Shown here: positions 1,740 through 5,932 of the stretch, piece after piece | How positions within the stretch are numbered: position 1 is the first letter of the stretch | Layout: every line of letters starts with the position of its first letter | NCBI GenBank assembly: GCA_030706745.1 | Contig: JAUZNX010000001.1 | Coordinates: forward strand, 372,001 to 436,000 | Direction: 5' to 3' | DNA from: Bacteroidota bacterium | Lineage (GTDB): Bacteria; Bacteroidota; Ignavibacteria; Palsa-1295 | DNA: 64,000 nt | Notes under the pieces: generated by a model | Database searches by the model: none | The model's input: only the letters and a program-made list of their open reading frames with translations | Told to the model about the DNA's origin: nothing | Made by a program: the position numbers and the translations under genes

Positions 1740-2291
1740 TTACCAGTTCGAAATCACCGCGATCATGATTTGCTCGGCCACCTGATCTTCGGCCTGGTGG
1801 ATTGCCTTCTTTTGGCCGGTCAGGCTTTCAATGATCTGGTAGTTCGCGGTCTGCGAAAAATCGCGCTCCCAAAAGACCTTCTGCTTTTTCTGATCGGTGT
1901 ACTTCGCATGGACGCGAAGCGTGATGCGCTTATCCTTGACCACCTCGCCAACGCTCACGCTGACCGCTTCATCGATGATCCCGTTCGGCGCAATCGAGGC
2001 TTCGAGCAGCGCGTCCGAATTCGATCGGTTCGCCACGCGAAGCGAGCCTTCGTTGGTAAACTTCTGTATCAACAGATCGGTCAGATTTTGCCGCACATCG
2101 GACTGCCCCCATCCCGAGTTATCTTCCACGCCCGGAATCCCGATGGTATGAATATGCGGCGGAATGCTGGAGCCGGTGAAGCTGTAGCAGCCGCTGAGAA
2201 GGAAAATATGAAATATGAAGTATGAAATATGAAGGGATCGGGATTCGACACCTCTGTCACGCTTCAACAAATGATTTATTTCATATTTCAT
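1740..2291 (-). CDS. lptE: LptE-family LPS-assembly lipoprotein
   Basis: 183-residue protein with a lipobox LLSGC followed by YSFTGSSIPPHI and an IPGVEDNS stretch, the pattern of Bacteroidota LptE. LptE is the outer-membrane lipoprotein that plugs LptD during lipopolysaccharide insertion. It lies 16 bp downstream of a sigma-54 activator on the same strand, an order common in Bacteroidota. The N-terminal region is odd: about 30 residues precede the lipobox cysteine, and the ATG (2289-2291) and the hydrophobic stretch ISYFIFHIF are both encoded inside 7-bp tandem repeat arrays (2206-2233 and 2280-2307). No other ATG is available before the lipobox; a TTG start at codon 8 or 9 is possible. The family call is strong, the exact start less so. 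Confidence 0.85.
   Translation of the reverse strand: MKYEINHLLKRDRGVESRSLHISYFIFHIFLLSGCYSFTGSSIPPHIHTIGIPGVEDNSGWGQSDVRQNLTDLLIQKFTNEGSLRVANRSNSDALLEASIAPNGIIDEAVSVSVGEVVKDKRITLRVHAKYTDQKKQKVFWERDFSQTANYQIIESLTGQKKAIHQAEDQVAEQIMIAVISNW
2206..2233. repeat. Heptanucleotide tandem array, arm 1 (atatgaa x4)
   Basis: Four consecutive 7-bp units read atatgaa, atatgaa, gtatgaa, atatgaa. The array lies inside lptE, where the opposite strand encodes the hydrophobic part of the signal peptide. It is the inverse of the array at 2280-2307, with 46 bp between them, so the two can pair as a long hairpin. Confidence 0.9.
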
Positions 2292-2307
2292 ACTTCATAT
2301 CTCATAT
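2280..2307. repeat. Heptanucleotide tandem array, arm 2 (ttcatat x4)
   Basis: Four 7-bp units read ttcatat, ttcatac, ttcatat, ctcatat, the reverse complement of the array at 2206-2233. The array contains the lptE start codon (complement of 2289-2291) and ends directly before the stop codon of the sigma-54 activator gene (complement of 2308-2310). Confidence 0.9.
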
Positions 2308-3582
2308 TTATTCGAGTCCTTTCTCCTTCATTTTGCGATAGAGCGTTCGCTCGCTGATTCCGAGTGCGCGCGCAGCGTGGCGGCGGTTGCCTTGATAATG
2401 TGCAAGCGCTTGTTCGAGCGCTTCGGTCTCGATGATTTCGAGTGGCCGGATCGTCGGGCGGCTATCTCCGTTTGTTGATGGCGGCAGCGCCAGCGTGCCT
2501 GTGCGCGTTGGCGTGCGGCCATCCTGAATCATACTCTTGATGTCGGCGATCTCGTTGCGAAGTTCAATGAGTGCCCGGTAGATGAGCTCGCGCTCGCTCT
2601 GCTCCTTCGGCATGGAGATCGGCGCCGCCGGCAACGGCCGGTTCGCTCGCGTGTCTTGCGCTACACCTCCGTGGCCAATGCCGCCGCCATCCCAAAGATC
2701 TGCAACGCTCGATGCTAGCGCCCGCTCGACGTCGCGTTGCGTGATCACGCATCGGTCGTCCGCTCGCGTGATCGAGCAGACGAGTACGACGAGTTGCTCG
2801 AGTGTGTTGCGCAATTCCCGAATGTTTCCGCGCCACTCGTGATCGATCAGCATTTGTGTCGCGTCCGGTGTAAGCTGCGGCATCTGCGGCTTGCCACTGG
2901 CGTCGACAATGTGATGTCTGCGAACGAACTCGCCAAGCATCGTCTCGATCAAGAATGGAATATCTTCACGCCGGTTGCGCAACGGCGGAATGCGGAGCAT
3001 CACCGCGCGCAGGCGATAATAGAGATCGCTCCGGAACGTCCCGGCGCGGACATCGTATTCGAGATCGCGATTGGTCGCCGCGATGATGCGCGCGTCGGTG
3101 GTGATCTGTGTGGTCGATCCAACGCGGGTGAACTTGCCGGTCTCGAGTACCCGCAAAAGCTTCACCTGCAAAGCGAGCGGCATTTCACCGATCTCATCTA
3201 AGAAGAGCGTACCCGATTGCGCGGCTTCGAAAAATCCTTTGCGCTGCCCGACCGCTCCGGTGAACGAGCCTTTCTCGTGGCCGAACAATTCGGACTCGAT
3301 CAGCCCTTCCGGTATCGCACCGCAATTGACCGTTACGAATGGACCCTTGCGTCCGCTCAAATCGTGAATCAACTCCGCGAAGACCTCCTTGCCGGTGCCG
3401 CTCTCCCCGGTGATGAGGACGGTGATCGCCGTCGGCGCGACGACTCGCACGACGGAGACGAGTTCGCGCATTTCTTCGCTCGCCGCGATGATATGATCGG
3501 GCAAGGGGACGCTCAGGCTGCGCGGAAGCGCGACCTCGGGGAGAATATGAGCGAGCGAGCGGGATGTGCTGATTTCTGCCAT
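2308..3582 (-). CDS. Sigma-54-dependent Fis-family transcriptional activator
   Basis: 424 residues from the ATG at 3582, chosen because the longer frame would overlap the divergent aminopeptidase gene. An AAA+ sigma-54 interaction domain fills the first two thirds: Walker A GESGTGKE, the L1 loop ELFGHEKGSFTGA (GSFTGA instead of the usual GAFTGA), Walker B GTLFLDEIGE, and the AAATNRDLE sensor region. A Fis-type helix-turn-helix closes the protein (NRRHAARALGISERTLYRK). There is no receiver or GAF domain at the N-terminus, only about 45 residues, so activity may be set by a separate partner or by expression level. The gene runs directly into lptE and is probably co-transcribed with it. Target promoters are not identifiable here. 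Confidence 0.92.
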   Translation of the reverse strand: MAEISTSRSLAHILPEVALPRSLSVPLPDHIIAASEEMRELVSVVRVVAPTAITVLITGESGTGKEVFAELIHDLSGRKGPFVTVNCGAIPEGLIESELFGHEKGSFTGAVGQRKGFFEAAQSGTLFLDEIGEMPLALQVKLLRVLETGKFTRVGSTTQITTDARIIAATNRDLEYDVRAGTFRSDLYYRLRAVMLRIPPLRNRREDIPFLIETMLGEFVRRHHIVDASGKPQMPQLTPDATQMLIDHEWRGNIRELRNTLEQLVVLVCSITRADDRCVITQRDVERALASSVADLWDGGGIGHGGVAQDTRANRPLPAAPISMPKEQSERELIYRALIELRNEIADIKSMIQDGRTPTRTGTLALPPSTNGDSRPTIRPLEIIETEALEQALAHYQGNRRHAARALGISERTLYRKMKEKGLE

Positions 3583-3632
3583 TTTGTCAGATGCAAGAAC
3601 TTCTTCTGTCTGCTTATGAGTTCGGCATTCCG

Positions 3633-5600
3633 ATGAGAAGCTCATTACAGGTCGTTTTAGCGGTGTTTTTATTGGGCGGGTTGTCTCACCGCGCAACTGG
3701 CCAAATTCCTGCCAAAGGCTATCACGCCATCTCCTACAATGCTACGGTCAAGCTGGACCGGCAAGCCGATTCGCTATGGGGTGTTGTGACCATGACGGGC
3801 CGGACATCAGAGAGCTTGACTGGAATTCGTCAATACGCTTTGTATATCCAGGTCGATAGTGTTTTCGTAAATGGCAGCCGCGCCGTTGTTCGGGTACTTC
3901 CTGATAGCTCCTTAATGTATGGCGGGTATTTCGCGCTCTCTCCAAGTGCTATCGACAGCGGCAATCTCTTCACAGTGACGACTTACTACCACGGCAAAGG
4001 CATGCCCGAGCAGCAAGGTACGCTCCACTGGGGAGGCGTGACCGACGAGGACACAATGATGTTTGCGATGGGCGTCGGCTTCAACGCGCCCTACACTTCC
4101 TGCACGCGGCACTGGATGCCCTGCTACGATCTGCCGGACGATAAGCCGGACTCAGTCGACCTAACGTTCATTTGTCGGGATAGCGATGTGACAGCTTCGA
4201 ACGGGTTGCTCGTCAGCAACACTGTAGCAAACGGCTGGCGGACGATGCACTGGCACATCAGCCATCCGATTGCGACGTATTTGCTCACGTTTGCGACGGG
4301 ACCCTACACCATAGATAATGTTCCGAACTCGCTGAACAAGCCATTTCAGGTCTTTGCGTTGCAACGCGATAGTGCTAAAGCTGCGGTGGACATGCGCGCG
4401 CGCGTGCGAGACATACTCGCGTTTTATGATTCACTCTTCGGCACATATCCATTCGAGAAGGTCGGCTATGTCATCACGCCCATCGGCTCGATGGAACATC
4501 AGACCATGATCTCGCTCGATAAGGGCGTGCTCATCGGCGATTCAGCGAAAATGGCAAGCAGCACCGGAGGCGGGAGCACCACTGCAATCCATGAACTCGC
4601 GCATCAGTGGTGGGGCGACTGGGTGACGTGCAAGACGTTCGACGATGCGTGGCTCAATGAAGGATTTGCGACATACTGCGAGGCGCTCTCGCTCGAACAT
4701 CTCTTCGGGCGCTCGGTATATCTTGCGACGCAACACTCGAACATCGCCATTTCCAAGTACCCGGCAGTAAATGCTCTGCCACTTTTCGGCGCCGCGACTG
4801 CGGACAATCACAGCAATAACTATCCCTCTACAATTTATCAAAAGGGCGCGGCCGTTCTCGGGATGCTCCGGCAGTATCTCGGCGATTCTACGTTCTTCAA
4901 ATGTGTCCGTTACTACGGTCGCGTGCATGCATATTCCACTGCTACCAGTTTCGATATGCAGCAAGACTTTAAAGAGATCAGTGGTCAGGATTTGTCGTGG
5001 TTCTGGAAAGAGTGGGTCTATGGTATTGGGTTTCCGAAGGATACGATCGTGTGGTACCGAAGACAGACTGGTGCGCCGATTGAATTTCATCAGAAGTTTA
5101 ACAATGCCGGCATGCCATACTTCCGAGTGCCGATTCCAGTGCGCGGGTACAGCAATGGTAGTCCAAAAGATGTCATCGTTTGGATGGACTCGACCCAAAA
5201 GAGTCAGGATTTCGCAAACTTTGGGTTCATGCCAGACTCGATCAAGATCGACCCGGATGGACTACTGTTGATGACGACAATGAAGATGACGTATTCTGCA
5301 TCAGTCGGTACTACAATGGTGGAGGTCAGTGTTCCTGCCACTCGTCTTCGAGTATTTCCCAATCCCAACAACCAGGACTTGCTTTCGTACTCTATCGACT
5401 ATCCGAATGCGTCTGGCGATCTCTTACTCATACTTTTCGATGACGCTGGTCATCAAGTACGCACTTGGACTCGTACGATAACCAAGACTATCATTCAAGA
5501 TAGCTTGAATATTGCCGGACTGAGCGCTGGTAATTATCGGTTGTACGTTCGGATACCAAATGAATTCTCTGTTTCAACCGGCGTAACAATAAGTCGCTAA
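3633..5600 (+). CDS. M1-family zinc aminopeptidase with T9SS sorting domain
   Basis: 655 residues from the ATG at 3633, which gives a clean signal peptide (MRSSLQVVLAVFLLGGLSHRA); an in-frame ATG 42 bp earlier would bury it. The gluzincin site is intact: H320-E321-x-x-H324 in HELAHQWWGDW and the third ligand E343 in LNEGFATYCE. The exopeptidase motif GxMEN appears as GSMEH (285-289). The C-terminal about 80 residues begin with LRVFPNPNN and end in a beta-rich T9SS type A domain. It is likely an exported peptidase that trims N-terminal residues from peptides outside the cell. It diverges from the sigma-54 activator across 50 bp, and its stop overlaps the next start (TAATG). Confidence 0.93.
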   Translation: MRSSLQVVLAVFLLGGLSHRATGQIPAKGYHAISYNATVKLDRQADSLWGVVTMTGRTSESLTGIRQYALYIQVDSVFVNGSRAVVRVLPDSSLMYGGYFALSPSAIDSGNLFTVTTYYHGKGMPEQQGTLHWGGVTDEDTMMFAMGVGFNAPYTSCTRHWMPCYDLPDDKPDSVDLTFICRDSDVTASNGLLVSNTVANGWRTMHWHISHPIATYLLTFATGPYTIDNVPNSLNKPFQVFALQRDSAKAAVDMRARVRDILAFYDSLFGTYPFEKVGYVITPIGSMEHQTMISLDKGVLIGDSAKMASSTGGGSTTAIHELAHQWWGDWVTCKTFDDAWLNEGFATYCEALSLEHLFGRSVYLATQHSNIAISKYPAVNALPLFGAATADNHSNNYPSTIYQKGAAVLGMLRQYLGDSTFFKCVRYYGRVHAYSTATSFDMQQDFKEISGQDLSWFWKEWVYGIGFPKDTIVWYRRQTGAPIEFHQKFNNAGMPYFRVPIPVRGYSNGSPKDVIVWMDSTQKSQDFANFGFMPDSIKIDPDGLLLMTTMKMTYSASVGTTMVEVSVPATRLRVFPNPNNQDLLSYSIDYPNASGDLLLILFDDAGHQVRTWTRTITKTIIQDSLNIAGLSAGNYRLYVRIPNEFSVSTGVTISR

Positions 5601-5863: not shown

Positions 5864-5932
5864 CGCACGCTTTCGCTTGCGCGAATACTCGGTGTTTCGA
5901 GGCGCTCGCGCAAGCGAAAGCGTGCGCTACAC
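5858..5932. repeat. 27-bp perfect inverted repeat between convergent genes
   Basis: Left arm 5858-5884 begins gtgtagcgcacgctttcg; right arm 5906-5932 is its exact reverse complement; the loop is 21 bp. Each outer end reads GTGTAG and provides the last codon and stop of the flanking convergent gene (small hypothetical on plus, meaB on minus). It could act as a bidirectional terminator, although there is no U-tract, or it may be a mobile REP/MITE-like palindrome. Confidence 0.95.

Follow-up and report, generated by a model that had tools for sequence, protein, structure and literature searches.

How a conserved bacterial gene obtains its export signal is a question that the lptE locus described here raises in an unusual form, namely whether the signal peptide was built from a simple 7-bp repeat and where that repeat came from. 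Signal peptides turn over fast and can be gained. The locus lies in a stretch of 64,000 nucleotides (the window) of a Kapabacteria-related bacterium, whose nearest named relatives are MAGs labelled Candidatus Kapaibacterium, Ignavibacteriae or Bacteroidetes. Its lptE product scored 45 bits with the LptE profile PF04390 (cut-off 23, E = 2e-11), and lptE is present in one copy in the genome.

A heptad hairpin at the 5' end of lptE

The features at this locus are the following, in window coordinates.

1740 to 2291, minus strand: lptE open reading frame, 183 aa, PF04390, with lipobox LSGC
2204 to 2309, minus strand: predicted mRNA stem of about 32 bp, its ends read from the fold of 2198-2315
2206 to 2233, minus strand: 3' pyrimidine arm in the lptE sense, TTCATAT TTCATAC TTCATAT TTCATAT, translated SYFIFHIF
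2234 to 2279, minus strand: 46-bp loop with the basic n-region NHLLKRDRGVESRSL and in-frame TTG codons at 2270-2268 and 2267-2265 as alternative starts
2280 to 2307, minus strand: 5' purine arm in the lptE sense, ATATGAG ATATGAA GTATGAA ATATGAA, holding the candidate ATG (2291-2289)
2308 to 3696, minus strand: upstream gene, sigma-54-dependent activator with a Fis-type HTH (Pfam PF00158, PF02954)

The original prediction had described two inverted arrays of four 7-bp units each around 46 bp, and both the coordinates and the reading of the units proved exact. On the plus strand, arm 1 (2206-2233) reads ATATGAA ATATGAA GTATGAA ATATGAA and arm 2 (2280-2307) reads TTCATAT TTCATAC TTCATAT CTCATAT. 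The arms pair at 27 of 28 positions when arm 1 is compared with the reverse complement of arm 2, and Tandem Repeats Finder called period 7 for both arrays. The lptE element is a hairpin of two inverted arrays and not a direct repeat without a partner array.

One arm had been said to encode the core of the LptE signal peptide, SYFIFHIF, which translation bore out. Arm 1 is translated into ISYFIFHIF directly ahead of the lipobox LSGC, and the core reads SYFIFHIF-LLSGC. Both the hydrophobic core and the lipobox lie in the LptE N-terminus, and export was judged from hydrophobicity, charge and lipobox alone. By these features, LptE would be exported by the array-encoded peptide. The further claim that the lptE ATG lies within one of the arrays held in part. 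The sole in-frame ATG ahead of the conserved LptE part is indeed located inside arm 2, but it is one candidate next to the two TTG codons of the loop. We infer that LptE starts at one of these, either the array ATG in the purine arm or a TTG in the loop. Use of the ATG would give a long n-region of about 20 aa, which counts against a role of the array as signal peptide. Between the pyrimidine arm and the lipobox Cys there is no ATG, GTG or TTG start, and every in-frame ATG or TTG candidate is found 5' of the pyrimidine arm. Therefore, the hydrophobic core is array-encoded whichever start serves.

The purine arm begins right after the TAA stop codon (2310-2308) of the sigma-54 activator gene, and the mRNA stem starts within this stop codon. 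The RNA fold of the hairpin had a minimum free energy of -43.6 kcal/mol (z = -8.35), equaled by none of 200 shuffles, so that the hairpin proposed over the candidate lptE start is strong in the predicted fold. Since the stem begins in the upstream stop codon, translational coupling is plausible, and the 32-bp mRNA stem may link the translation of lptE with that of the gene upstream.

The arms belong to a dispersed family of heptad arrays

The sequence ATATGAAATATGAA was found at 21 sites in the 3.81-Mb genome that contains the window (G000), and its reversed control at none. When up to 3 mismatches were allowed to the 21-mer, the whole genome revealed 71 sites versus 0 for the reversed control. 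The unit order A, A, G, A recurs in many copies of the ATATGAA array, and from this shared order the 28-mer seems to have been copied as a block. In 446 kb sampled from G000 we counted 35 strict period-7 arrays versus 0-1 for periods 4-6 and 8-13, a count that is biased upward for the ATATGAA unit as the sample was picked mostly around ATATGAA hits. Further units in this genome are GGATGAA, AGTGGAT, AATGACG, AACGATG and AATTCGT, the last in nine copies near a tRNA-like sequence. Across the sampled genomes the arrays are mostly intergenic, and the coding ones are located in signal peptides, protein termini and a few internal positions. As tandem 7-bp units that are dispersed and mostly intergenic, they correspond to STRR-like arrays. 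The lptE hairpin departs from elements of the MITE, RPE or YPAL kind, which span about 100-200 bp and are conserved in sequence between copies. By eye, the inspected elements of the sampled regions have just the arms in common with this copy, and its loop was found in none of them.

Some of these arrays lie near other sequence elements. The AATTCGT array (L037:13068-13133, G000:C11) consists of about nine near-perfect copies just past the tRNA-like sequence and 4 bp ahead of a called gene; its reverse complement encodes TNYELRI. ATATGAA arrays, some of them as hairpins, are also found between or beside tRNA-like sequences at L026:9999-10020 and L027:9818-9926. In L021, L022, L025, L028, L035 and L037, single ATATGAA 28-mers sit within a larger shared intergenic repeat (gggcacc ... 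ttcattaaatgacaattcaaaagagagaattaaagtaatactttaactt ...), which constitutes a second family.

REP elements are hairpins as well, and G000 has seven Y1_Tnp matches, which would fit a REP or MITE moved by a Y1 (RAYT-like) transposase. However, no clear heptad array was located within 1.5 kb of the three strongest Y1 genes, and only two weak Y1 matches have arrays in their flanks, at some distance. Furthermore, heptad arrays are not confined to inverted pairs but also occur singly, and they have many different units. None of the seven genes being clearly linked to arrays, we rejected a RAYT/Y1 transposase as the mover and consider an origin of this kind very improbable. Telomerase-like repeat addition by DRT10-type reverse transcriptases was likewise set aside as an analogy; the best-studied of these enzymes makes 9-nt repeats in cDNA (PMC12632851).

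The lptE junction differs between species of the genus

We compared the junction, from the stop codon of the activator gene to the lptE lipobox, in G000 and in the genomes G001 to G006. Mature LptE proteins across this set are 61-80% identical to that of the window, showing that the protein is kept while the signal peptide changes. Four of the seven genomes, G000 included, have a heptad array of their own at this position. The hairpin is built from GGATGAA in G001 (...HFILHPSSLILLSALLGSC), from GGTATGG in G002 (...LLHTPYPILRSLYPIPLLLLVGC) and from GGTAAGA/AGTAAGA in G003 (...CCLPLTSYLLLLTFQGC). Each of these three is translated into, or followed by, a different hydrophobic segment; in G002 the core lies mostly downstream of the array, which counts against the use of arrays as signal peptides. 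The hairpins of all four species fold strongly, with z scores from -6.6 to -10.7 in G001 to G003. G004 and G005 carry no heptad repeat and have a short ordinary peptide, e.g., MNNRRSLVILFFFVFSGC, for which a TTG that overlaps the upstream stop can serve as start. In G006 the junction holds a different palindromic repeat of the GCGGGAATGAC type, GGATTCCCGCTTTCGCGGGAATGAC (L015, upstream of 1439). This palindromic repeat may supply the n-region MDSRFRGNDS. No relative has the signal peptide of the window without the repeat, as the signal peptide differs in every one of them. Strict period-7 arrays are frequent in the sampled regions of G001 (19, with some contigs picked because ATATGAA hits were present) and G003 (16), and sparse in those of G002 (4) and G004 (2).

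The strength of these folds raises the possibility that the hairpin is mainly an RNA regulator, acting at the junction of the sigma-54 gene with lptE by translational coupling, occlusion of the start site or processing by RNase III, and that the peptide is a by-product. A stem of about 32 bp that extends from the upstream stop codon and has so low a z score would be in line with this, as would the strong folding of differing hairpins in three other species. Yet G004 and G005 do without a heptad hairpin at the junction, and two G001 genes of other function share the design (see below). In addition, a search of the hairpin for known structured RNAs and intrinsic terminators matched no Rfam family and no terminator-like site. 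A mainly regulatory role is therefore unlikely in our view.

The two closest genomes provide insight into the history of the hairpin. In G000 and G001 both arms align heptad by heptad, and 14 of the 15 differences fall on two unit-defining positions. This points to a joint rewriting of the units or to the replacement of one array by another. The LptE tree joins G000 and G001 (99/98), with G002 next (89/90), and places G003 with the repeat-free G005 (85/82). The original prediction had suggested that the repeat was inserted at lptE. This is one of two histories, because sister G001 has a different hairpin in the same register and the units may have turned over in place. According to the other, the hairpin would be ancestral to the genus at lptE, its units having been rewritten by gene conversion between dispersed arrays and not inserted anew in each species. 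Such an ancestral hairpin is favored by its location directly behind the upstream stop in four species, by the concerted changes in the two arms of G000 and G001, which share one register, and by single GGATGA stretches at the upstream stop codon of G003 and G006. Against it, the loops are unalignable and differ in length, and G003 pairs with a repeat-free genome in the tree. We rate this history at close to, though just short of, an even chance. A clear empty site was not found in the close relatives.

The part of the original prediction that concerns co-option, a repeat at the lptE 5' end taken into use as a signal, agrees with the data. The repeat is a member of a dispersed family and abuts the upstream stop, its place is taken by a short peptide in the repeat-free G004 and G005, and the hydrophobic core is array-encoded. 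We conclude that the lptE feature is probably one copy of a dispersed heptad-array hairpin family that was domesticated as the lptE signal peptide.

Heptad arrays recur at lptE in other Bacteroidota

Outside the genus we analyzed 137 non-redundant lptE loci (138 less L238, which was removed by hand as a repeat of L139). A strict array at the lptE 5' end was present in six of these (L139, L154, L180, L181, L188, and L197), with the units TTAAGAA, TCAATTG, ATTCAAA, TCAGAAC and GCTTACT/GGCGATT. The array codes for the hydrophobic core itself at two loci (L154 and L197) and for the n-region at three (L180, L181 and L188), and at L139 it is located upstream of the likely start. Array density at the lptE 5' end is 17 times that elsewhere in the same loci (P about 7e-6). 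At the same threshold, periods 5, 6 and 8-11 were absent from the lptE 5' ends of the 137 loci, although period 7 is the commonest period elsewhere in those loci, too. All six loci stem from one retrieval (6/71), while the second set had none (0/66). Since one set backs a hotspot and the other does not, we rejected lptE as a phylum-wide hotspot and claim recurrence only.

Such arrays could also be neutral passengers in a permissive gap, where almost any hydrophobic sequence is tolerated, and confer neither an advantage nor a regulatory role. The distribution of arrays in the sampled genomes, mostly intergenic and otherwise in signal peptides, termini and few internal positions, is what one would expect of passengers, and G006 indeed has another palindromic repeat at the same lptE junction. 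The restriction to period 7 at lptE elsewhere in Bacteroidota might speak against a passenger; however, it holds at a strict threshold and is weak either way, period 7 being the commonest anyway. A passenger is moreover compatible with co-option and denies its benefit only. We see the chances of neutrality as evenly balanced.

Arrays in other genes

The design of the lptE hairpin recurs beyond lptE. For this comparison, gene calls on the sampled regions were made in this analysis, and signal genes were identified with a simple rule of our own. In G001, ATATGAA hairpins form the N-termini of two exported proteins unrelated to each other, a Por secretion tail protein (L045, MKYEMKFWSGTWVNPSKVLPALVILFIFHTSYFIFSARAQ) and a subtilase (L048, MKKSILFCLIFHTSYFIFCSGLSAQ). 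In both genes the purine arm contains the ATG, and the pyrimidine arm contains or adjoins the hydrophobic core. In a Big_5 lipoprotein of the same genome (L056, MMKYVKIRPPFLIPHSSFLICALLAFGSIIASC) AATGAGG provides the core, and in an M16 peptidase-like lipoprotein (L054) AATTCGT provides the n-region. For L045, L048 and L056 one orthologue each was found, in G004 or G002, with a signal-like N-terminus that lacks the array. With lptE excluded, arrays occur in the first 35 codons of signal-peptide genes in 4 of 13 clusters of G001 (P = 4e-4); the same count over five sampled genomes gave 4 of 53 clusters and is borderline (P = 0.05). Array enrichment in signal-peptide codons outside lptE is thus suggestive and clear in G001 only.

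Coding arrays are also found further inside genes. In-frame arrays are present within DXP synthase (twice), a TauE permease, an amidohydrolase and a large subtilase-like protein, the family of the last being taken from reading its sequence. The two DXP synthase arrays differ from each other and lie in one gene (L020:5509-5529 and 5879-5904, G000:C1), near aa 484 and 609 of 667, where they give STPLYPLSTINC and NILHPSSVIPHP.

Heptad hairpins as potential frame-independent cassettes

Why hairpins of this type might lend themselves to use as signal peptides can be derived from the unit length. A run of at least three heptads presents every reading frame, because 7 mod 3 = 1. A purine arm (ATATGAA)n would therefore contain both a stop and an ATG whichever frame is read, and a pyrimidine arm (TTCATAT)n would be open and hydrophobic in every frame, repeating FIFHISY. 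Both ATATGAA and GGATGAA place one stop and one ATG in every 7 codons of the purine strand, and their other strand is an open hydrophobic repeat (FIFHISY and FILHPSS, respectively). Among all heptad classes, only 6.8% have both a stop and an ATG on one strand and leave the other open. In an inverted pair the purine arm comes first on either strand, and consequently a start followed by a hydrophobic stretch would be presented in any frame and in either orientation. The hairpin fills precisely the gap from the stop codon of the sigma-54 activator gene to the conserved lptE part. Placed in this way ahead of a mature domain, it could act as a frame-independent "stop, start, signal" cassette.

The best reading of these data is that dispersed heptad hairpins were recurrently domesticated as signal peptides. 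A bolder version, in which the cassettes repeatedly replace signal peptides across Bacteroidota with a preference for lptE, and copying in fixed steps of 7 nt generates and concertedly rewrites the arrays, strikes us as doubtful.

Comparison with known systems

At the locus described here, the conserved outer-membrane gene lptE appears to owe its signal peptide to a simple repeat, the unit is a different one in each related species that carries such a repeat, and further cases exist in other genes. These cases suggest simple repeats as raw material for signal peptides, and they offer a concrete and testable route by which export signals arise or are replaced, as well as a possible use for the unexplained 7-base repeats of bacteria. 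A survey of Enterobacterales sought mobile elements behind signal-peptide gains and found none (PMC5952966).

Several known systems share part of this design. In the mitochondria of Nematomorpha, inverted-repeat arms also lie within coding sequence (PMC6649704), but there both arms encode conserved protein, whereas here they encode a fast-changing signal peptide. The Rickettsia palindromic elements are palindromic repeats translated in frame inside conserved genes (Ogata et al., in PMC2229807; PMC10969869). They measure about 105-146 bp and encode a conserved peptide, in contrast to the species-variable 7-bp unit and its N-terminal use at lptE. The in-frame arrays inside DXP synthase, TauE permease, amidohydrolase and the subtilase-like protein resemble them.

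Heptad tandem repeats themselves are known from Cyanobacteria, Beggiatoaceae, Bacteroidetes and Xanthomonas, such as TAACTGA (PMC4679880), GGGNATC (PMC4692102) and STRR. They are described as mostly intergenic direct repeats whose origin is unexplained (PMC4679880; PMC4692102). They share with our arrays the 7-base unit, the low copy number per array, the dispersed and mostly intergenic location and, in several cases, a position near start codons or protein ends. In contrast to ours they are mainly direct repeats for which a translational or G-quadruplex role was proposed, and the portions consulted do not report inverted pairs that form signal peptides. The literature searched held no report of heptad arrays as signal peptides.

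The closest parallel is YPAL/RU-2 of Yersinia, a palindromic repeat whose translation is hydrophobic and forms part of the signal peptide of the putative exported protein YPO1552 (Delihas 2007, as given in the review PMC2229807). As with YPAL in YPO1552, the hydrophobic core of LptE is encoded by a dispersed repeat, and in both systems a small palindromic repeat becomes the hydrophobic segment of a signal peptide. YPAL, however, is a MITE-like repeat in a putative new protein, whereas the lptE hairpin is a heptad array whose units vary between related species and that serves a conserved protein. The Yersinia YPAL element is the one precedent described for a repeat-derived signal peptide, and heptad arrays used as signal peptides would be a further case.
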